Source: Permianibacter aggregans
Lineage (GTDB): Bacteria; Pseudomonadota; Gammaproteobacteria; Enterobacterales; Permianibacteraceae
Direction: 5' to 3'
DNA length: 64,000 nucleotides
NCBI RefSeq assembly: GCF_009756665.1
Contig: NZ_CP037953.1
Span: 4,092,001-4,156,000, forward strand
Program-made: the position numbers and the translations under genes
Notes under the pieces: model-generated
What the model saw: the letters and a program-made list of their open reading frames with translations, nothing else
Database searches by the model: none
What the model was told of the DNA's origin: nothing
Part shown: positions 32,905 through 58,845 of the stretch, in pieces
Layout: every line of letters begins with the position of its first letter
Numbering within the stretch: the first letter of the stretch is position 1

Positions 32905-33075
32905 GCTCCTTAGAGTGCCGGCTCACTGAGCAAGGTGGGCTTCCACGGATGCCGGACATGCTGTCCGAATCGGGAAGTCATTAAATGGGAAGTCCGGTGC
33001 AAATCCGGCGCTGCCCCCGCAACGGTCAGGTCTTCATTGAAGCCAAGCCCGATACCAGCCTGCTGCAGTTGATGG
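32905..33075 (+). ncRNA. cobalamin (AdoCbl) riboswitch
   Basis: The conserved core is clear: GGGAAGTCCGGTGCAAATCC followed by GGCGCTGCCCCCGCAACGGT, then the 3' B12-box region AAGCCCGATACCAGCCTGC. Position and strand place it in the leader of btuB-cobO-btuFCD, about 110 bases before the btuB start, so high B12 should shut the uptake operon down. The outer limits are estimated to within about 15 bases. Confidence 0.92.
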
Positions 33076-33183
33076 TCATTAATGAATGAGCCGTCAAGTA
33101 CGATGATGCGGAGGGCGTCGTCGGAGGCAGCTGCTTTTCTGCTTTCTGCATTTCCTTCCTGCATCTTTTCTTTGCCCAAAAGA

Positions 33184-38533: not shown

Positions 38534-38547
38534 AAATGGAGAACGAC

Positions 38548-40839
38548 ATGAGCGTTGCCCACGTACTCGGCTATCCACGGATTGGCGCGAAACGGGAATT
38601 GAAATTTGCCCTGGAAAAATACTGGCGTGGTGAGCTCAGTGAAAACGATTTGCAGGCCGTGGCAGCGGCGTTGCGCAAGTCACATTGGCAAGCGCAAAAG
38701 GATGCAGGTCTTGATTACGTTACCGTCGGCGATTTTTCTTTTTATGATCAAGTGCTGGACACCACACAATGGTTAGGTGCGTTACCTGAGCGTTGCATCG
38801 ATCAAGGCAGCAGTGCGCTCGATAATTATTTCCGTGCAGCCCGCGGTGCAGCGCCAACCGGCAAAGCGACCACGGCTAGCGAGTTGACCAAATGGTTCGA
38901 TACCAATTATCACTATCTGGTGCCTGAACTGCATGCCGATCAATCGTTCCATCTTCAGGCTGAGCAGCTGCTTGGCCAAATCAATGAGGCCCTGGCGCAG
39001 GGCCACAAGGTCAAGCCGGTTATTCTCGGACCGATCAGCTATTTGTACCTGGCAAAAACCACTGACAACAGCGACAAGCTGGCGCTGCTCGGAAAGCTGA
39101 TTCCGGTATACCGCCAACTGCTGCAAGCGATCGAGCAGACGGGTTGCAAATGGATTCAAATCGACGAGCCGGCGCTGGTATTCGAGCTCGATAACCGTTG
39201 GCAGGAAGCGTTCCGGATTACCTATAAGCATCTGCAGGATTACCAGATCCGTATTTTGCTGGCGACCTACTTTGATCGCGTCGATCATCATCTGCCGCTG
39301 TTGCAGTCAGTGGCGGTGGACGGCTTGCACGTCGATGCCGTACGTGGCGCAGACACCGTGCAGCAAATTATTGATGCCTGGCCAAAAGAGCGGGTGCTGT
39401 CGCTCGGCGTCATCGATGGTCGCAATATCTGGCGCAATGATTTGCGTGCCTCGCTGCAAGTGCTGAAAACCGCACAGCAGAAATTCAATGGCAGGCTTTG
39501 GGTGTCAGCATCGAGTTCGCTGCAGCATGTGCCGGTCGATTTGACACACGAACAAAAATTGCCGAGTGAGCAGAGGCAGTGGTTGGCATTCGCTCGTCAA
39601 AAGCTTGATGAAATCGTTACGCTGAGCAGGGCGCTCGCCGAAGGTGTGGAAGCGGTCGAATCACAACTGAGCGAAAGTGATCAAGTGATTGCCTCCCGTC
39701 GTCATTCGCCGCAAACCCATCGAGCCGCAGTTCGTGCCCGTCACGCGGCGGTCAATGAGAATGATGCCAAACGTCATTTGCCTTATAACAAACGTGCAGC
39801 CTTGCAACGCGCGGCGCTGGAGTTACCGGCATTTCCCACGACGACCATCGGCTCATTTCCGCAAACACCGGAAATTCGTGCACTACGTGCAGGCTGGAAA
39901 AAAGGCCAGATCAGTGAGCAGGAATATCGGCAGGGCATACGCGCCCAGATCGCCGATCATATTCAACGCCAGGAAGCGCTGGGGCTCGATGTGTTGGTAC
40001 ACGGCGAAGCCGAGCGCAATGACATGGTCGAGTATTTCGGCGAACAACTCGAAGGCTTTTTGTTCACGGAAAACGGTTGGGTGCAAAGCTATGGTTCGCG
40101 CTGCGTCAAGCCACCGGTCATTTTTGGCGACGTCGAACGTAAGGCCTCGATTACCGTTGATTGGGCCGTGTACGCGCAATCGTTGACGGAAAAGCCGGTA
40201 AAAGGCATGTTGACCGGTCCGGTAACGATTCTTTGCTGGTCATTCAATCGCGACGATTTGTCACGTCAGGCACAGTGCGAGCAAATAGCGCTGGCGCTGC
40301 GCGATGAAGTGCTCGATTTGGAAAAAGCTGGCATCACGATTATCCAGATCGATGAACCGGCGATTCGCGAAGGCTTGCCACTGCGCAAAGGCGAGCAGGG
40401 TGCTTATCTCGATTGGGCCGTCAACGCGTTCAAGTTGGCTACCTCCGGCGTTGCTGACACCACGCAAATCCATACCCATATGTGTTACTCGGAATTCAAC
40501 GAGATTATCGACTCGATTGCCGCACTCGATGCCGACGTCATCACCATCGAGACTTCGCGTTCGCATATGGAGTTGCTGCAGGCATTCCGTGATTTTGCTT
40601 ACCCGAACGAAATCGGCCCTGGCGTTTACGACATTCATTCGCCGGTAGTACCGACAACCGAGCAAATCGAAGTGTTATTGGAAAAGGCCTTGCAACATAT
40701 TCCACAAGAACGGCTGTGGGTGAACCCCGATTGCGGTTTGAAAACGCGCGCCTGGCCGGAAACCGAGCGAGCATTGCAGGCGATGGTGCAGGCAGCAAAA
40801 CGCTTGCGTGCAAAGCATCAACCGGCGGCGGTGGCCTGA
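38548..40839 (+). CDS. metE: cobalamin-independent methionine synthase
   Basis: A 763-residue zinc enzyme that methylates homocysteine from 5-methyltetrahydropteroyl-triglutamate without B12. It has the double-barrel layout; the zinc-site phrases THMCYSEFN and NPDCGLKTR and the catalytic QIDEPA are present. The frame is open 12 bases earlier, but that ATG overlaps the GGAGAACGAC binding site, so 38548 is the start. Two MetJ operators precede it. Together with metH it gives the cell both B12-dependent and B12-free routes. Confidence 0.96.
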   Translation: MSVAHVLGYPRIGAKRELKFALEKYWRGELSENDLQAVAAALRKSHWQAQKDAGLDYVTVGDFSFYDQVLDTTQWLGALPERCIDQGSSALDNYFRAARGAAPTGKATTASELTKWFDTNYHYLVPELHADQSFHLQAEQLLGQINEALAQGHKVKPVILGPISYLYLAKTTDNSDKLALLGKLIPVYRQLLQAIEQTGCKWIQIDEPALVFELDNRWQEAFRITYKHLQDYQIRILLATYFDRVDHHLPLLQSVAVDGLHVDAVRGADTVQQIIDAWPKERVLSLGVIDGRNIWRNDLRASLQVLKTAQQKFNGRLWVSASSSLQHVPVDLTHEQKLPSEQRQWLAFARQKLDEIVTLSRALAEGVEAVESQLSESDQVIASRRHSPQTHRAAVRARHAAVNENDAKRHLPYNKRAALQRAALELPAFPTTTIGSFPQTPEIRALRAGWKKGQISEQEYRQGIRAQIADHIQRQEALGLDVLVHGEAERNDMVEYFGEQLEGFLFTENGWVQSYGSRCVKPPVIFGDVERKASITVDWAVYAQSLTEKPVKGMLTGPVTILCWSFNRDDLSRQAQCEQIALALRDEVLDLEKAGITIIQIDEPAIREGLPLRKGEQGAYLDWAVNAFKLATSGVADTTQIHTHMCYSEFNEIIDSIAALDADVITIETSRSHMELLQAFRDFAYPNEIGPGVYDIHSPVVPTTEQIEVLLEKALQHIPQERLWVNPDCGLKTRAWPETERALQAMVQAAKRLRAKHQPAAVA

Positions 40840-40860
40840 ACAACCTTGGGGAGAAACATC

Positions 40861-41793
40861 ATGGGCTTGACGGCCGCGCGGTTGTTGGAAACGCTGAATC
40901 GCCAGTGGGAGAAAGTGGAAGATCGTTTGAACGTATCGTTCGAATTTTTTCCGCCGAATTCGCCAGAGATGGCCGATACGCTGTGGCAATCGGTCGTCAA
41001 GCTCGCCAAGTTCAAACCACAGTTTGTGTCAGTGACTTATGGCGCCAACCGCTCAACCCGTGATCGGACGCATGCGGTCATTGAGCGCTTGGTACAGGAA
41101 ACCGATTTAACGCCGGTGCCGCATCTGACCTGCATCGATGCCAGTCGTGAGGAAATTGCTGACATCGTCAGCCGCTATCGTCAGCTAGGCGTCAATCATA
41201 TCGTTGCGCTGCGTGGTGACTTGCCGGCGAGTGCAACACAGACGGGTGGTGATTTTCAGTACGCTTCCGATCTGGTGGCTTTCCTCCGGCAGCAAGGCGT
41301 TGAGAAAATTTCCGTTGCCGCCTATCCCGAAGTGCATCCGGAAGCGCGCAGTGCCCGTCATGATTTGGATAACCTGAAACGCAAAGTTGACGCGGGCGCC
41401 ACCGACATCATCACCCAATTCTTTTTCGACAACTGCGCGTTTTTGCGTTTTCGTGACCGTTGTCGTTCGGCAGGCATTGAGTTGCCGATCACGCCGGGAA
41501 TTCTGCCGGTCAGCAATTACCGGCAGGTTGAGCGCTTTGCCTCCGGCTGCGGCACGCGAGTGCCGAGCTGGATGGGGCATCTATACGAAGGCTTGGATGA
41601 TGATCCGGAGACGCGGCGCCTGATCGGCGCCAGTCTGGCGTTGGAACAGGTCAAGTTGCTAATCAATGAAGGTGTTGCCGATTTTCATTTCTATACGCTG
41701 AACCGAGCTGAGCTCTCTTACGCGATTTGCCATGCGCTGCGCCTTGTAGGCTTGCCCGGTCGACATGCTGCCCCCCAGTTGGCCTCGGTCTGA
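40861..41793 (+). CDS. metF: 5,10-methylenetetrahydrofolate reductase
   Basis: A 310-residue FAD enzyme that makes 5-methyl-tetrahydrofolate for MetE and MetH. The typical SFEFFPPNSPEM start (catalytic Glu), ITQFFFDN and LNRAELSYAICHAL end are present. GGGGAG lies 9 bases before the ATG. It follows metE by 21 bases, so the two are probably co-transcribed under MetJ control. Confidence 0.95.
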   Translation: MGLTAARLLETLNRQWEKVEDRLNVSFEFFPPNSPEMADTLWQSVVKLAKFKPQFVSVTYGANRSTRDRTHAVIERLVQETDLTPVPHLTCIDASREEIADIVSRYRQLGVNHIVALRGDLPASATQTGGDFQYASDLVAFLRQQGVEKISVAAYPEVHPEARSARHDLDNLKRKVDAGATDIITQFFFDNCAFLRFRDRCRSAGIELPITPGILPVSNYRQVERFASGCGTRVPSWMGHLYEGLDDDPETRRLIGASLALEQVKLLINEGVADFHFYTLNRAELSYAICHALRLVGLPGRHAAPQLASV

Positions 41794-41858
41794 GGTTTGT
41801 TTTTGGCGAAAACACCGGTAGACTGCCGGCCTTCGCTGAGCCAGAACCTGTTACCGCT

Positions 41859-42509
41859 GTGCCGCTGATTGATTTTATCCTTCATATTGACGCCCACCTG
41901 CTGGCGATGACCCAGCAATATGGCGTCTGGATCTATGCCATTCTGTTCGCGATTGTGTTCGCCGAAACCGGTTTGGTCGTTACGCCATTTCTGCCAGGTG
42001 ATTCTTTGTTGTTCGCCGTTGGTGCCATTGCCGCGCTCGGTGGTTTGGACCCGTGGTTGGCCGGCGGTTTGATCGCGCTGGCGGCATTTCTTGGCGACAA
42101 CACCAATTACTTTTTCGGTCGCTGGATGGGGCCGCGCGTCTTTCGCGAAGACTCGCGTTGGCTGAATCGTGCCTATTTGGTCAAAACCCAGGCCTATTAT
42201 GATCGCTGGGGCCCGCAAACCGTCATCATCGCGCGCTTTTTGCCGATCATTCGCACCTTTGCGCCATTCGTAGCCGGTGTCGGCAATATGCCGTATCGTC
42301 GCTTTATCGGTTTCAGTTCGCTTGGTTCGTTGCTGTGGGTGCCATCCTTTATCGGCTTGGGTTATCTGTTCGGCAATATGCCGGCCGTGAAAAAACATTT
42401 TTCGCTGGTAGTGTTGGCGATCATCGTGATCTCCGTTATGCCGGCGGTCATCGCTGTACTCAATGAATGGAACAAGAAACGACGAGCCGCCCAAATCAGC
42501 GAAGGATAG
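41859..42509 (+). CDS. DedA-family membrane protein
   Basis: A 216-residue protein with the DedA/SNARE-associated membrane domain: FAETGLVVTPFLPGDSLLF, GDNTNYFFGRWMG and FLPIIRTFAPFVAG with its conserved Arg. DedA proteins are implicated in undecaprenyl-phosphate or phospholipid recycling. The open frame reaches back into metF; the GTG at 41859 gives the usual family length and removes the overlap. The binding site is weak, so the start is uncertain. Confidence 0.85.
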   Translation: MPLIDFILHIDAHLLAMTQQYGVWIYAILFAIVFAETGLVVTPFLPGDSLLFAVGAIAALGGLDPWLAGGLIALAAFLGDNTNYFFGRWMGPRVFREDSRWLNRAYLVKTQAYYDRWGPQTVIIARFLPIIRTFAPFVAGVGNMPYRRFIGFSSLGSLLWVPSFIGLGYLFGNMPAVKKHFSLVVLAIIVISVMPAVIAVLNEWNKKRRAAQISEG

Positions 42510-42572
42510 GCGTCAAGCCTTAAAGCTGTGGTAGGCTTGCTGCAGAACGTTCCCGAACAACAATAGCTGAAG

Positions 42573-43418
42573 ATGAATACGGGTAACAGGCAAGGCCGAT
42601 TGACAATAGTGGGCGCAGGATTGCAGCCCGGACAAATGACGCTGGAAGCGGAGAGTCATATTCGTGCCGCCGACGTCGTATTGCTGATTTTACCCACCGC
42701 GCTTGCTGCTCATCATGTCATCAGTCTGAATGACAACTTCATCAACCTGCTCGATCTCTACGAAAACCGTACCCGCCCTGAAACCTATAAAGCGATGGCT
42801 GAGGCGATTGTCGAGCAGGTACATCAGGGTCGTAACACCTGTGTAGTGGCATACGGTCATCCTGGCGTGTTCGTGACGCCAACTCATGCGGTCATGCGCC
42901 AATTACAAGAACAAGGCTATTCGGTACGCATGTTGCCGGGCATCTCCGCCGAAGCCTGTCTCATTGCAGATCTCGGTGTCGACCCGGCTGAACACGGCTG
43001 GCAGAGTTTCGAGGCCACCTCATTTCTCTTCACCCAGCAATCCGTTGCGCCAACGGCAGCGTTGATTCTTTGGCAGGTCGGTTTGACCGGTGAAGTGTCG
43101 CTGAAACGATTTGTGCCGGGTGAGCGCGGCATTGATGCGCTGATCACCTGCCTGCAGCAATGGTACCCAGCCGATCATCGTGTCTGCGTTTACGAAGCGC
43201 CGATATCGCCGCTGGAACAAGCCCGTAAGGAGTGGGTGGCTCTGGATGAGCTGAATACCGTCCAATTCAAAGAGTACAGTACGCTCTATGTCCCGCCCGT
43301 TCATCGTGCGACCTTGATCGATTCGCGTCTGGAATGGTTGGCATTGAATAAATCCGATTTAAAAGGGTTTGAGGCGGTGCCGGCAGCACCGCTTTCACCG
43401 TGGCAAAACAACAACTGA
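42573..43418 (+). CDS. SonM-like borosin peptide alpha-N-methyltransferase (TP-methylase fold)
   Basis: A 281-residue SAM-dependent methyltransferase of the tetrapyrrole-methylase fold. TIVGAGLQPGQ at the N-terminus and YGHPGVF (94-100) form the SAM site, and LPGISAEACLIADLGVDP follows. The segment LYENRTRPETY (Tyr63, Arg66/68, Tyr72) matches the Tyr/Arg active-site helix of borosin methyltransferases. These features, and HGWQSFEAT, match bacterial split borosin enzymes such as SonM rather than corrin or siroheme methylases. Such enzymes iteratively methylate backbone amides of a separate precursor peptide, and the gene 16 bases downstream fits that role. No corrin-biosynthesis genes lie beside it. 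Confidence 0.85.
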   Translation: MNTGNRQGRLTIVGAGLQPGQMTLEAESHIRAADVVLLILPTALAAHHVISLNDNFINLLDLYENRTRPETYKAMAEAIVEQVHQGRNTCVVAYGHPGVFVTPTHAVMRQLQEQGYSVRMLPGISAEACLIADLGVDPAEHGWQSFEATSFLFTQQSVAPTAALILWQVGLTGEVSLKRFVPGERGIDALITCLQQWYPADHRVCVYEAPISPLEQARKEWVALDELNTVQFKEYSTLYVPPVHRATLIDSRLEWLALNKSDLKGFEAVPAAPLSPWQNNN

Positions 43419-43434
43419 AGTAGGGGAGAACAAA

Positions 43435-43704
43435 ATGTCCAAAGCATTGGCAGATATGACGGTTCGTTTGGCGCTTGATGCTAAATTTCTGGCGGAGTGG
43501 AATAAAGGTGCCACCGCTAAAGAACGTGACGACAACCGCACGGCGATTATGAAAAAGCTGGGATTAACCGAGCGGGATATCAAAGCCGTTCTGAATCATG
43601 ATAATGACCATATTAATGCGGCGTTGAGTAAGGGCGTGAAAATGCGTGTCGAGAGCTGGATAAACTCGACCAACTCAATAATTAAAATTAACGCAATCGA
43701 CTAA
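43435..43704 (+). CDS. SonA-like borosin precursor peptide
   Basis: An 89-residue protein with a very strong GGGGAG seven bases before the ATG. Residues 1-70 form a small helical, LigA-like (borosin-binding) domain: LALDAKFLAEWNKG, then a charged insert, then KKLGLTERDIKAVLNHDND, matching the SonA pattern of an acidic/Leu helix followed by GLTxxxIxAVxxxD. The C-terminal tail WINSTNSIIKINAID (75-89), rich in Ile/Asn/Ser, is the likely core where backbone N-methylation would occur. It was readable only inside a longer frame beginning in the upstream gene; that earlier start is not used. No peptidase gene is adjacent. Confidence 0.8.
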   Translation: MSKALADMTVRLALDAKFLAEWNKGATAKERDDNRTAIMKKLGLTERDIKAVLNHDNDHINAALSKGVKMRVESWINSTNSIIKINAID

Positions 43705-43719
43705 GCTTGGAGTGGCCAG

Positions 43720-45732
43720 GTGAAAAGCGTTCAGTTTCTGCTAATGCTGGTAGTCTGGATTGGCGCCGTATCAGCGAAGGCTGATGCGGACGTTGATCAA
43801 CGCAAGGCATTGGATCTTTATCAGCAAGTACTGGAACGCTCTTTCTCTGCACCTACAGAGACGATTGCCAATGCAAGCGAATTTTACGCTTTGGAGCATG
43901 TGCTTTCAGATCAGGATATGAAAGCAATGGTCCGTAGCGAAGAAGCATACGCATGGTTTATCGCCGGAAAAACCATGGAGGCGCTCGACAAAGCACAGAA
44001 AGCCCTTCACTACGCTGAGCAACAACAAAGTATGCGAGCGATGGCTAGAGCTCGAATGGTAATTGGCAATTGCTTCTACATTTTTTCCGTTAATGACAAA
44101 GCGCTTGAAAATTACTTGATGGCCGAAACGTTGTTTCATAGTTTGGATGACAAGGCAGGTCTGTTAAAAGTTTACAACAATATTGGTAATGTTTTTAGAG
44201 CAATTCAAAGCGCCGATCGTAGTTTAGAGTACTACAACAAGCTTCGGGACTTGGCTGAGCAATTGGATGACCCCATAACGGTCGCTAACGCGTATCAAGG
44301 ACTCGGGAATGCCTACGTATTGGCTGGATCTTCGCAAATGGCGGAAGATTCTTGGCTCAAAGCTGAGCATATCTATCTTCAACATGCTGAACATCCCGAT
44401 GTGCTTTCCTATCGGGTTCTGCTTTATGGCTCAATGACCGAACATTTCATTGAAAAAAATAACTACGAAAAAGCACTTGAGATTAGCGCCCAACGACTCA
44501 GTCTGACTGAACAAGACGAAGTGAAGGTTTGGCAAGGAGAGGCGTTGCGCATTCATGGAAGAATTTTGATGCTGCGTGGCGATTATCAAGGCGCAAAATT
44601 GCATCTGAATCGAGCGGAATACCTTGCTGGCTTAGTCAACAACCCATCCCTGGGATTGGTGTATCGCGATCAGTCACAACTGCTTCGCCAAGAGGGGCAA
44701 TACAAAAAAGCACTGGAGTACGCCGAAAAACATCGGCAATTTGCCGAAACAAGCTACTCCCATGCAGCAGCGATGCGAACGAGCATAATAGAAGCTGCAT
44801 TTCAGAGTGAAAAGAAACAGCGTGAAATCGACAACCTAGCTGCGCAAAACGAAATCCAGAAAATGCAGGTTGAGCAGCACAAGTACATGGTGTTACTGTC
44901 AATCGGTGTTGCGTTTGTTATTCTCGGGTTGATGGCATTTTGGTTTTACCGTGCCAGAGCCAATGCCCGTCTGAAAGAGCAGCGTCAACTTAACGCTAAA
45001 TTGATGGAGCTGGATAAGGTTAAAACCAGGATTTTAGCCAATACTTCACACGAACTGCGCACGCCATTGAACGGTATTGTTGGATTGTCAGAGTTACTGT
45101 TGTTGGCTGAGCTGTCTGAAGACGAGAGACATCATGTGCAGATGATCGCTGACTGTGGACGAAGTTTATCGGCGGTCGTCGATGATCTGTTGACCTATGC
45201 CTCGCTGCCTGAGCGTTCAACGCCGGAGCGCTGTGAAGTGTTAGCCCTGCGGCCGTTGGTTGAGGAGTTGGCGACATTGCATGGTTCTGGCATTCAGCGT
45301 CACGGCGTTCGATTTATCAATCAAATTCATGACGATGTTCCAAAGGTGCTGGCGACACCGTACCGGGTCAAACAAATACTGACTAATTTAATTGGCAATG
45401 CTATGAAATTCACAACGGCGGGCAGCATTCATTTATCAGCTGAGCAGCAAGGTGACTTTCTGAAAGTGAGTGTCAAAGATACTGGTATCGGAATTCCTTC
45501 CGATAAACTTGAAGTCATTTTTGAAGCGTTTGCTCAGGTGGACAACTCGGCTAGTCGCAGTTATCCCGGGGTTGGTCTAGGGTTGACGATAGTCAAGGAG
45601 TTGGTTGAGCGCCACGGCGGCAAAATTGGCGTTGAGTCAGAATTGGGTATTGGCAGCATTTTTTGGTTTACCTTGCCACTCGCCAAACAGCAAGCGTACG
45701 CCGAGCCGGTTTCGGTACCGGCTCGGGTTTAA
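43720..45732 (+). CDS. sensor histidine kinase with periplasmic TPR domain
   Basis: A 670-residue kinase starting at GTG (GGAG upstream), 15 bases after the precursor gene. A signal peptide (1-20) is followed by about 350 residues of tetratricopeptide repeats, a coiled-coil stretch, one membrane helix (about 389-410) and a cytoplasmic kinase with H-box [10 protein letters not shown] (phospho-acceptor His444), N-box, and G-boxes DTGIGIP and GVGLGLTIV. There is no receiver domain and no adjacent response regulator. Close spacing suggests co-transcription with the borosin genes, so it may sense or respond to the peptide product. Confidence 0.88.
45702..45730 (+). terminator. possible terminator overlapping the end of the kinase gene
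   Basis: CGAGCCGG and CCGGCTCG form an eight-pair stem within the last codons, followed by GGTTTAATAAT. The T-run is poor and the hairpin is inside coding sequence, so this is tentative. Confidence 0.35.
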
Positions 45733-45744
45733 TAATGGAATCCT

Positions 45745-46953
45745 TTAAGTATTTAGCACTTGGCGTGTTTTGCGCCGAGCAAATTCCCGAGTTTCAAACA
45801 CGACGTCTAGAGCATCTTCCAGCGCGCCACAAAGATCTTCGGCGTCTTCAATGCCAATCGATAAGCGCAGCAAACCATCACTGATGCCGGCACGGCGACG
45901 AGCCTCCGCATCCATGGCGGCATGCGTCATCGTCGCTGGATGAGCAACCAGACTTTCGACACCTCCCAGCGACTCAGCTAGTGAGAAGTGCTGTAAATGC
46001 TGCAAAAACAGTTGTACTTCATCGCTGTCCTGCAACTCGAAACTCAGCATTGCTCCAAAATCGGTTTGTTGTTTCGCAGCTAGCTCATGGCCAGGATGCG
46101 AAGGTAGGCCAGGGTAGTGCACTTTGCACACCGCCTGGTGATGGCTCAGTACTTCCGTTACCGCTTCGGTGTTGGCCAGATGCACCGACATCCGCGCTTC
46201 CAGTGTACGCAAGCCGCGCAGCGTCAAATACGAATCAAAAGGCGACGCCGTCAAGCCAAGACAGTTTGCCCAGAACTTGATTTGCTCAAAAAGCTCTGCA
46301 GTTTTCGCAATCACGGCACCGCCAACGACATCGCTATGGCCATTGATGTATTTGGTCGTCGAGTGAATGACCAAGTCGGCGCCTAGTGCCAGTGGTTGTT
46401 GCAGCACTGGCGACAGGAAGGTGTTGTCGACGACAACGAGGGCATTGACCTGTTTGGCGGCTTCGGCAATGGCCTGAATGTCGGCGATGCGCAGCAAGGG
46501 ATTTGACGGCGTTTCGATCCACACGAGTTTCGGTTTGCGCACGCGGATTTTTTCCAGAAACTCCGCCTCAAGCTGGTTGTGGAACTCGGCATTGACCACT
46601 TGCCGTTGTTGGAAACGGCTCAGCAATCGATAGGTGCCGCCATAACAGTCGTGTGGTGCGAACACCAGATCTTGCGGCGTCAGTAATTGCAAAACCAATG
46701 TCACGGCGGCCATGCCGGTGGCAGTGACAATGCCGCCAAATCCGCCTTCCAGATCGGCCAAGGCTTCGCCGAGCAAATCGCGAGTGGGGTTGCCAGAACG
46801 AGTGTAGTCATAACGGCCGGGCACGCCGAATTCCGGAAAGCGATAATTGCTGCTCAGGTATATAGGCGGAATGACGGCACCGTGTTGGCTGTCGGTTTCC
46901 AGGCCACTGCGAACCAGGCGGGTTGATGGTCGTGCTCTTCTCACTTTCTTCAC
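45745..46953 (-). CDS. metB: cystathionine gamma-synthase
   Basis: A 402-residue PLP enzyme that joins O-acyl-homoserine and cysteine to give cystathionine. Close to MetB throughout: SGLETDSQHGAVIPPI, YTRSGNPTRD, APHDCYGGTYR, VVDNTFLSPVLQQPLALGADLVIHSTTKYINGH (PLP Lys in TTKY) and SLGGVESL. Last gene of metX-metL-metB, 5 bases after metL. Cystathionine beta-lyase is less likely given the MetB-type DCYGGTYR and the context. Confidence 0.9.
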   Translation of the reverse strand: MKKVRRARPSTRLVRSGLETDSQHGAVIPPIYLSSNYRFPEFGVPGRYDYTRSGNPTRDLLGEALADLEGGFGGIVTATGMAAVTLVLQLLTPQDLVFAPHDCYGGTYRLLSRFQQRQVVNAEFHNQLEAEFLEKIRVRKPKLVWIETPSNPLLRIADIQAIAEAAKQVNALVVVDNTFLSPVLQQPLALGADLVIHSTTKYINGHSDVVGGAVIAKTAELFEQIKFWANCLGLTASPFDSYLTLRGLRTLEARMSVHLANTEAVTEVLSHHQAVCKVHYPGLPSHPGHELAAKQQTDFGAMLSFELQDSDEVQLFLQHLQHFSLAESLGGVESLVAHPATMTHAAMDAEARRRAGISDGLLRLSIGIEDAEDLCGALEDALDVVFETREFARRKTRQVLNT

Positions 46954-46958
46954 TCCTT

Positions 46959-49268
46959 TCAGGCCGCAATCGCGGACAATGGTGCGCGACGGGACAGCGC
47001 TTCGGCGGCGACAACGATGTCGGCAAAAAGACCGGCGCTGGTGACGTTGATACCGGCTCCGGGGCCGGTGACGGTCAATGGGATATCCTGATAAAACGTT
47101 GATTGATAGATGACGGCGTTCTCTGTGCCACGCAAACGATAGAAAGGTGATTGCGCATCGATACGTTTCAAGCCGACGGAAACGTTGCCGTCACGGTATT
47201 GCGCGGCATAACAAAGGCGCTGATTCGCTGCTTGCACCTCAAGAACCAATTGGCGCCAACGTTCGTCAACCTGCTGATTAATCGGTCCGTGTAGGTTGGT
47301 GTCGTGCAACGGCGTCAATTCGATTTCACTGCGCTCGATGCGAATGCCACAAGTGCGCAGCAGGATCAGCATTTTTCGTGCGACATCTTCGCCGCTCAAA
47401 TCCTGCAATGGGTCCGGCTCGGCGTAACCTTTTTCCACCGCTTGTTGTACGGCGGCAGAGAACGGCGTGCCTTGCTGAACGCTGTCCAAAACAAAACCGA
47501 TAGTGCCGGACAACACCGCTTCGACATGATGCGGCGTATCGCCTGCGCGGCGTAAGTCCAGCAGCGGCTTCAGTACCGGCAACGCCGCGGCGACAGTGGT
47601 TTCATAGCAGTAGGGCACGCGGTGTTTGCGCGCCAGTGATTGCAGTTCGGTGAAGCGTTGCAGGGCGTCGGAGTTGGCCAGTTTATTGGGCGTTACGACG
47701 GCGACACCGGCGGCCAAAAACTGTTCATAAAGGCCAGCGATTTCGCTGCTGGCTGAGGCATCGACGACCACCAATTTGTCGTATCCCTGAGACAATAACT
47801 CCTGGGCGAGCAGACTCGCCGGGCGCTGTTGCAGTGGTTGTTCCGCCAATCGGTTTAACAAACCCTGGCAATCATTTTCATGGCGTTTACACCACAGCGT
47901 TTGTTTTGAGTTGCACAGGGCAATCACTCGCAGCTGTGTTCCAGATTCCGCGAACAGGCGCTGACCTTCGGTCAATAGTAACTGCAAGGTCTGACGACCA
48001 ATGCGACCGCTGGCACCAATGATAGCCACGGCCGTTTCCTGTTGTAATGGATACAAGCGGCTGTGCAACAGTCGAGTAAAGCGCTGCAGTTCGATGGAAG
48101 GTATCGCAAACACGATTACGCGCTGTTTGCTCAGCAGTTTTCGTTGCAATACGCTGACGCCGGCCTGGGCGGCGATATCGGTCAACAGGTTTTGCCAATA
48201 ACGAAGCGCATGATGGTCGGCAAGAAATACACTGACCAGCGAGCTTTCCGGAAAACGCGCCTGCCATTTTTTCAAGTTCAATGGCAGTGGTGGTTTCTTG
48301 CTGAGTTCAGCATGCTGCGGTGGCGACCAGGCGGCGAGCAGGCTGGCTTGGCGATGGGCTAATTGTGCGCGAATGCTGGTGCCCTGTTCGTGCTGCAGGG
48401 TGCCGAGACGTAATGATTTGCCGGTTTTTAATAGTGGCTCCAATGTGCGCGGGTGTAATACCCCGGCGCCACATTGCGATAACAAGCATGCATCTTCAAC
48501 CGAGAGCTCAGCAACGGTTTCAGCGCCCGGTACGTAATCCGGATCGGCACTGAGAATTCCTGCGGTATCGCCGAGCAACTCCAATTCATCAGCAGCAAAA
48601 GCGGTAACAATGGCTGCGGAGTAATCGGAAGCATTGCGCCCCAGCAACGTCGTGCGGCCGTCTTTATCCGCGCCGCAAAAGCCGGTGATGATGCGAATCG
48701 CAGATTGAAAGTAATCCTCGTTCAGCGCAGCGAAGGCTTTTTCCGTAGCAGATTGGTCGAGGTTGGTATTGAACGGTTCACTATCGGTGCGGATCAATAA
48801 TTCCGAAGGCACCCAGCTCGCCGTGCGCTGTTGTGATTGCAGCAGAGCGCTCAGTAACGACGCCGACAGTTTTTCGCCAAGCGACAAAACAAACGCGATA
48901 TGCCAATCGATGTTTTCACCTTGATGAATGTTTTGCAGTCGGGTTTTTGTCTGCTCCAGGTAGTGAGCAATTTCTTGACGGTAATTGCTGGCAAAACTTG
49001 CTGGTAGTAGTTCAGTGACCAGTTTATTGTGCGCAGCGAGGATGTCGCTCAGTGCTTGCGAAGCTTGTTCGCGATTGTGCTTGGCCAATTGTGTGCAGGC
49101 ATATAGCGCATCAGTGGTGCCTTTGGTCGCTGATACGACAGCAATAACGGTTGCTGATTGACAGCGGGTTTTAAGGTATTCGGCGACTTGCAGAAAATGC
49201 GTGGCTGAAGCCAGCGTACTGCCGCCGAATTTCAGCGTGATGGTTTTCTTTTTCAATGACGTGCTCAT
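46959..49268 (-). CDS. metL: bifunctional aspartokinase/homoserine dehydrogenase II
   Basis: A 769-residue fusion that catalyses the first and third steps from aspartate to homoserine. The N-terminal aspartokinase has KFGGSTLAS, the middle regulatory region is degenerate, and the C-terminal homoserine dehydrogenase begins with AIIGASGRIGRQTL and includes ETTVAAALPVLKPLLDL and VLSGTIGFVLD. Shorter than E. coli MetL (about 810). Overlaps metX by four bases and is followed by metB, so it is the methionine-dedicated isozyme. Confidence 0.93.
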   Translation of the reverse strand: MSTSLKKKTITLKFGGSTLASATHFLQVAEYLKTRCQSATVIAVVSATKGTTDALYACTQLAKHNREQASQALSDILAAHNKLVTELLPASFASNYRQEIAHYLEQTKTRLQNIHQGENIDWHIAFVLSLGEKLSASLLSALLQSQQRTASWVPSELLIRTDSEPFNTNLDQSATEKAFAALNEDYFQSAIRIITGFCGADKDGRTTLLGRNASDYSAAIVTAFAADELELLGDTAGILSADPDYVPGAETVAELSVEDACLLSQCGAGVLHPRTLEPLLKTGKSLRLGTLQHEQGTSIRAQLAHRQASLLAAWSPPQHAELSKKPPLPLNLKKWQARFPESSLVSVFLADHHALRYWQNLLTDIAAQAGVSVLQRKLLSKQRVIVFAIPSIELQRFTRLLHSRLYPLQQETAVAIIGASGRIGRQTLQLLLTEGQRLFAESGTQLRVIALCNSKQTLWCKRHENDCQGLLNRLAEQPLQQRPASLLAQELLSQGYDKLVVVDASASSEIAGLYEQFLAAGVAVVTPNKLANSDALQRFTELQSLARKHRVPYCYETTVAAALPVLKPLLDLRRAGDTPHHVEAVLSGTIGFVLDSVQQGTPFSAAVQQAVEKGYAEPDPLQDLSGEDVARKMLILLRTCGIRIERSEIELTPLHDTNLHGPINQQVDERWRQLVLEVQAANQRLCYAAQYRDGNVSVGLKRIDAQSPFYRLRGTENAVIYQSTFYQDIPLTVTGPGAGINVTSAGLFADIVVAAEALSRRAPLSAIAA

Positions 49269-58735: not shown

Positions 58736-58845
58736 GGCGGTCTGCAGGGTGCCCGCGCGATGCTAGATGGTGAACTCCGCCAGGCCCGGAAGGGAGCAAC
58801 GGTAGCTGTTGATGCATGCGCCGCGTCAGTGCTCTGCAGGCTGCC
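58736..58845 (+). ncRNA. ffs: 4.5S signal recognition particle RNA
   Basis: The conserved SRP core CAGGCCCGGAAGGGAGCAAC is present within a long rod: GGCGGTCTGCAGGGTGC at the 5' end pairs with GTGCTCTGCAGGCTGCC at the 3' end. Length about 110 bases as expected. Its place just upstream of dnaX is the usual gammaproteobacterial synteny. It binds Ffh for co-translational membrane targeting. Confidence 0.95.

Follow-up and report, generated by a model that had tools for sequence, protein, structure and literature searches.

A probable split-borosin unit of Permianibacter aggregans combines a methyltransferase, a SonA-type precursor and a predicted exported TPR sensor kinase

Three genes, designated M, A and T, follow one another on the same strand in the window, i.e., the whole 64,000-nucleotide stretch of Permianibacter aggregans DNA that was analysed, and very likely constitute a split-borosin unit with the corresponding chemistry (Table 1). 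The ORF of M starts with ATG and ends with TGA, and a gap of 16 nt (43419–43434) separates it from A, which is an ORF of its own. The product of A was counted from its ATG; the mechanically called ORF begins upstream at TTG 43369. The 16-base spacing, the 89-residue product, the ribosome binding site and the placing of the tail (WINSTNSIIKINAID) at the end of the precursor, all claimed in the original prediction, were confirmed from the sequence. Both genes that it described stand, but its scope was too narrow: T, starting 15 nt past the precursor stop codon, belongs to the unit.

Table 1. Coordinates of the genes and features of the M-A-T unit in the window
Feature	Position	Strand	Basis
M: split-borosin alpha-N-methyltransferase (by sequence), 281 aa	42573..43418	+	phmmer, Pfam, catalytic-residue alignment
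Shine-Dalgarno-like AGGGGAG, 6 nt 5' of the precursor ATG	43422..43428	+	sequence reading
A: predicted precursor, 89 aa	43435..43704	+	AF2 model, VIA-align to SonA, clade profile
Predicted borosin binding domain, residues 1-68	43435..43638	+	AF2 model, VIA-align
9-residue insert versus Shewanella-type precursors, about K24-D32	43504..43530	+	hhalign, alignment
Putative core, residues 75-89, from W75	43657..43701	+	alignments
T: exported TPR sensor histidine kinase (predicted), 670 aa, GTG start	43720..45732	+	Pfam TPR_12, HisKA, HATPase_c; AF2 pLDDT 88.8
TPR superhelix, residues 45-324, predicted periplasmic	43852..44691	+	AF2 helices, VIA-align, hydrophobic segments
Transmembrane segment, residues 391-409	44890..44946	+	hydropathy
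HisKA (435-496) to HATPase_c (548-655)	45022..45684	+	Pfam

The M product matched Pfam TP_methylase (6.8e-20). In the phmmer search against PDB sequences SonM (7ltc) came first with E 1e-54, followed by the OphA/OphMA enzymes (2e-42) and MroMA (1e-36), whereas the top corrin methylase reached only 8.7e-5, i.e., about 1e-4. No model exceeded its cut-off in the NCBIfam scan, where YabN and corrin methylases matched weakly and far below their cut-offs. The motifs LYENRTRPETY, YGHPGVF and PGISAEACLIADLGVDP are present in M, as the original prediction had it, and Y63, R68 and Y72 correspond in the enzyme alignment to SonM Y58, R67 and Y71, whose roles are described by Miller et al. 2021 (PMC8429565). 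This catalytic Tyr/Arg/Tyr set was retained in 104/104 aligned enzymes. Judged by its sequence, M is a borosin-type peptide backbone N-methyltransferase; the placement check proposed with the prediction thus came out in its favour, and the corrin/siroheme/RsmI methylase identity was ruled out by the distance between SonM and the best corrin methylase. The side clamp, formed by the residues between the catalytic Tyr and Arg, counts 5 residues in 78/104 enzymes and 4 in the window and its relative L038, and the 17 rows in which it counts 8 all belong to family code f6; on these counts its shortening was dropped as a clade-specific marker.

A counterpart of A adjoins the enzyme gene in L038, a genome of the same family (identity 37.5%, E 3e-17; 38%, E 8e-14), which argues that A is more than a chance ORF. 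The AlphaFold2 model based on 42 rows (pLDDT 91; the other four models averaged 79–82) contains helices at residues 3–14, 16–22, 28–41, 46–53 and 57–68 and, after this helical domain, strands at 70–77 and 81–87. In VIA-align the SonA chains ranked top (Z 6.6; rmsd 1.9 over 56 and 1.4 over 52 residues), followed by the LigA-like part of DesB (Z 5.7), with unrelated rows at 2.9 and below; for helical bundles, Z under 8–13 can reflect a common arrangement. Foldseek with the A model alone gave no match at E<=0.001. Since the Z value lies in the caution range and Foldseek was negative, the sequence evidence matters here. A profile of the eight precursors of the window clade, built without Shewanella rows, had SonA chains as the top 7 of its 9 matches (4.7e-5 to 1.5e-3), and profile-profile alignment by hhalign to 13 Shewanella-type precursors gave a probability of 97.4 with a single 9-residue gap. 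Sequence and model together identify A as a SonA-type precursor whose binding domain is predicted to be five-helix and LigA-like, in agreement with the original prediction. An HU-like DNA-binding protein was rejected, having only weak sequence matches (E 0.04, 0.41) to set against those to SonA. The methylated residues of SonA are L63 and I65 (PMC8429565), and S81–I85 of A sit at about these positions in an alignment whose gap placement is uncertain. Across the precursors the alignments show tails conserved in position, not in sequence.

SonM/SonA of Shewanella oneidensis is classed as a type IV split borosin (PMC8429565), and the window pair shares with it the separate enzyme and precursor, the catalytic Tyr/Arg/Tyr, the five-helix binding domain and the C-terminal tail. 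It differs in the length of the precursor (89 aa versus 71 in SonA), in the 9-residue insert and the Trp-led Asn/Ser/Ile tail, in the catalytic Tyr–Arg loop (4 residues versus 8 in SonM) and in the partner, which is a kinase in the window, whereas in f6, presumably the Shewanella family, 19/20 loci pair with a TPR-GGDEF protein. The likeness to OphMA consists in the homology of the enzyme (E 2e-42) and a weak match of the broad precursor profile to the OphMA clasp (E 0.02); the window precursor is a separate protein. OphMA belongs to the fused borosins of types I–III.

The window clade comprises eight loci (the window, L037, L038, L040 and L096–L099). W75 is invariant in the eight precursors and the insert is present in them, being mostly absent in L040. 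Asn makes up 0.05–0.32 of the final 22 residues in these precursors and on average 0.05 (maximum 0.18) in 60 others; the window value of 0.14 is not extreme, and the lowest one belongs to L037, the precursor of which continues beyond its Asn-rich part. In the enzyme tree of 103/104 enzymes (L155 omitted) the nine clade enzymes were monophyletic (SH-aLRT 95), and the window and L038 were paired at 97. The charged insert had been put forward as the sign of a new subtype. The insert is there and marks one clade, but no new type could be ranked on it. The data support a sub-clade marked by the insert and the Trp-led tail, not a type ranked beside the published types V–X. These types, introduced by Imani et al., are reportedly defined by precursor architecture and core composition. 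PMC11395268 and PMC11285071 mention them second-hand. The enzyme–precursor pair is a further case of split borosins and the clade is a variant of it.

A second borosin locus is present in the P. aggregans genome (L037:6137-8103 and following; G000:C1:2612136-2614102). Two overlapping tandem methyltransferase genes, both with the three catalytic residues, are followed there by a precursor and a TPR kinase, and upstream, in divergent orientation, is metK, which encodes a SAM synthetase. Neither T nor this tandem locus was named in the original prediction. In the window (38536–49268) the unit comes after metE-metF-dedA; the genes downstream of it encode a metB-like Cys/Met PLP enzyme and a fusion of aspartokinase with homoserine dehydrogenase. 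Methionine/SAM genes hence adjoin both borosin loci of this genome, which may be chance, since such neighbours are missing at L038, the nearest relative. A cobalamin riboswitch (32940–33077) and a small SRP RNA (58744–58840) are ordinary; control of the unit by met genes or the riboswitch was rejected, the riboswitch being far upstream. Scans for promoters and terminators found no more than shuffled sequences did.

Two hydrophobic segments, residues 1–19 and 391–409, place the TPR part of T outside the cytoplasmic membrane, on hydropathy only. VIA-align of the T model listed LGN (Z 29.4), APPBP2 (26.5), NprR (25.8) and Rap with its peptide (Rap-CSF, 25.6). The predicted fold thus resembles peptide binders most closely among solved structures; TPR superhelices look alike, so the Z values alone are not proof of peptide binding by T.

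The occurrence of the TPR gene was followed across the order in a sample of 104 enzymes in 99 stretches (the window, L006, L037–L073 and L096–L155), 60 of them taken mostly from the top of the match list of the order search. TPR genes were called by our own iterated profiles and export was judged by hydropathy, not by a signal-peptide predictor. A same-strand TPR gene lay within 1.6 kb of 96/104 enzymes, joined to a GGDEF output in 63 cases, to a kinase in 24 and to no output in 9. Downstream TPR genes (78) divided into 47 GGDEF, 23 kinase and 8 without output, and upstream ones (18) into 16, 1 and 1, respectively. An N-terminal hydrophobic segment was found in 93/96 and a later one in 92/96 of the TPR proteins. 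Eight of the no-output proteins (L055, L066, L115, L116, L127, L139, L140 and L144) kept the signal-like segment. At the ninth locus (L111:2559-4289, minus strand) the TPR gene stops early and GGDEF occupies a separate ORF just downstream, perhaps because the sensor gene is broken or the sequence contains an error. Since the TPR is retained while the output differs, it is the constant part of the partner. Pfam scans of the neighbours in three batches detected GGDEF in 18/46, 29/42 and 15/26, and TPR_12 in 33, 18 and 15.

Eight of the 104 enzymes had no TPR gene by the 1.6-kb rule. The L096 contig ends, by eye, inside an apparent TPR gene start; the first enzymes of the pairs at L101, L102 and L105 have their TPR gene about 2.56 kb farther on; and at L047 a GGDEF gene is encoded by the opposite strand. 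On the stretch seen, a clear absence of the TPR gene was confined to L107 (first enzyme), L039 and L155, and at L113 and L055 one stood on either side. TPR-partnered pairs were spread over eight family codes within the order, and the one f6 locus outside the 19/20 with TPR-GGDEF is L111. Outside the order a TPR neighbour was found in 3/10 loci (L156, L163 and L164), hence borosins in general do not share the TPR link. Genomes with an enzyme at E<=1e-25 numbered 94/394 in the order sample, 9/369 in the class sample and 15/398 in the phylum sample, the samples overlapping.

All three genes were recognised at 90/104 loci in the orders MAT (65), ATM (15), AMAT (4), AMT (3), TMA (2) and MAAT (1), labelled by our own small-ORF and profile rules; the remaining 14/104 were MT (5), M (4), MAA (3), MA (1) and TM (1). 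For MAT the A–T gap had a median of 6 nt and ranged from -74 to 208; for ATM the median was 7 nt and the range -106 to 11. Modification of the sensor's own tail by enzymes devoid of a downstream small gene was considered and dropped, as the profile scan showed that most of these loci do have a precursor, located upstream of the sensor (ATM). The enzyme tree and the TPR tree were compared for 95/96 sensor loci (one sensor is common to two enzymes); their distances correlated at 0.716, a value attained by 0/1000 partner shuffles within families (at most 0.314) and 0/1000 swaps within genomes (at most 0.669). In 16 genomes with at least two loci, the nearest TPR relative came from the same genome for 0/35 loci, and the enzyme tree requires at least 5 switches of the output type. 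Judged from these sequence comparisons, M, A and T form a long-lived unit, which does not by itself imply contact between their products; the tree agreement could arise from shared operon inheritance alone.

Several loci of the survey depart from the common plan. The precursor at L039:6362-6984 (minus strand) has a binding domain followed by ten GYAxDAAIIK-type repeats, and adjoins an HD/DUF3391 gene of the HD-GYP kind, where the TPR sensor would stand. Precursors with strongly acidic, PAEDDE-like tails were found at 30/104 loci (e.g., L060, L064 and L070); a GNAT-like acetyltransferase gene lay within 1 kb at 24/30 of these versus 10/74 others, one being confirmed by Pfam. L101, L102 and L105 have methyltransferase gene pairs with two different precursors, the first with a duplicated KLLLL segment in its tail, and L006 (5493–5732) and L129 have one enzyme with two precursor genes. 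Borosin-like methyltransferase domains in long ORFs of L155 and L165 (638 and 1174 aa) are possible fusions.

The best reading of M-A-T is a split borosin with a dedicated TPR partner that is predicted to be exported. By analogy to SonM/SonA, M would dock A through the helical domain and use SAM to add alpha-N-methyl groups to the tail amides, most likely around S81–I85. The neighbourhood and the TPR shape suggest that the tail, or a released methylated peptide, may be read by T or act together with it. T would convert the peptide cue to phosphotransfer, and the output in relatives would probably be cyclic-di-GMP synthesis. Because TPR relatives bind peptides and the operon is shared, a ligand role of the methylated tail is the leading idea of function; that the TPR domain binds the unit's own product is a possibility we entertain tentatively. 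The unit revealed neither an exporter nor a protease, a point against periplasmic sensing, and A shows no signal peptide. N-methylation is said to favour membrane permeability (PMC8429565); this would be compatible with exit of the peptide and is not evidence for it.

T may instead sense the envelope or peptides in the ordinary way and turn on the borosin genes, or a response to their product, with no recognition of the product itself, a possibility to be taken seriously, if short of probable. The lack of a protease or an exporter in the unit is in line with such a role. Like sensors also occur apart from borosins: 1/3 of the TPR regions similar to T in its own genome had neither a borosin enzyme nor a recognisable precursor nearby. 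Regulators, moreover, often sit beside biosynthetic genes. It is harder to reconcile an ordinary sensor with a TPR that persists through all the varied outputs of the 96 partners, and 8/9 no-output loci encode proteins devoid of an output domain, which could not switch genes alone.

It is also conceivable, but unlikely, that A, rather than being a prepeptide, is a small protein with a function of its own, exerted by the methylated tail while still attached, e.g., by docking on T or another protein. The unit without a visible protease, the tail folded by AF2 into two strands after the helical domain, and the tail's kept place in the absence of a kept sequence would all suit this role, but the TPR of T is predicted to lie across the membrane from A.

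The TPR gene as a chance or hitch-hiking neighbour appears highly improbable. Neighbours of such kinds are not rare, the own genome having 58 GGDEF and 55 HATPase_c matches, but in the position control GGDEF/kinase genes amounted to 87/206 within 0.6 kb of the enzyme, 5/66 at 0.6–1.6 kb, 8/135 at 1.6–3 kb and only 4/212 beyond 3 kb. The recurrence of the same gene set in three orders (MAT, ATM and AMT) and the tree agreement in excess of the within-genome swaps also speak against it. Finally, M as a tetrapyrrole or rRNA methylase next to an unrelated A, for which the TP_methylase match and the sub-threshold YabN and corrin methylase scores could be quoted, can practically be dismissed given the lead of SonM over the corrin methylases and the A-type gene recognised beside most relatives.

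The split borosin with a TPR partner invites comparison with the RRNPP receptors. T shares with Rap and NprR the TPR superhelix, a likeness of shape only (Z about 25), and differs in that its TPR is predicted, on hydropathy only, to be exported and is joined to a membrane kinase, whereas Rap and NprR are cytoplasmic. A further-reaching hypothesis, which we regard as rather doubtful, is that M-A-T is a self-contained signalling unit, in which a protease-resistant, membrane-permeable N-methylated peptide would be the cognate ligand of the adjoining exported TPR receptor and the output, be it a histidine kinase, cyclic-di-GMP synthesis or none, would have been swapped in evolution. No paper linking borosins with TPR proteins, and none mentioning SO1480, was found; no description of the three-gene unit turned up in the literature searched, a search that did not take in the Imani et al. 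and RODEO borosin surveys.

The window clade contributes precursors whose binding domain is longer and whose tails are rich in Asn, of use in probing the permissiveness of the enzymes. The TPR partner gene gives orphan borosin pathways a testable role in signalling. If the hypothesis of a self-contained unit is true, M-A-T would be the envelope-facing equivalent, in Gram-negative bacteria, of the RRNPP peptide systems, and this group of split borosins would for the first time have a function.
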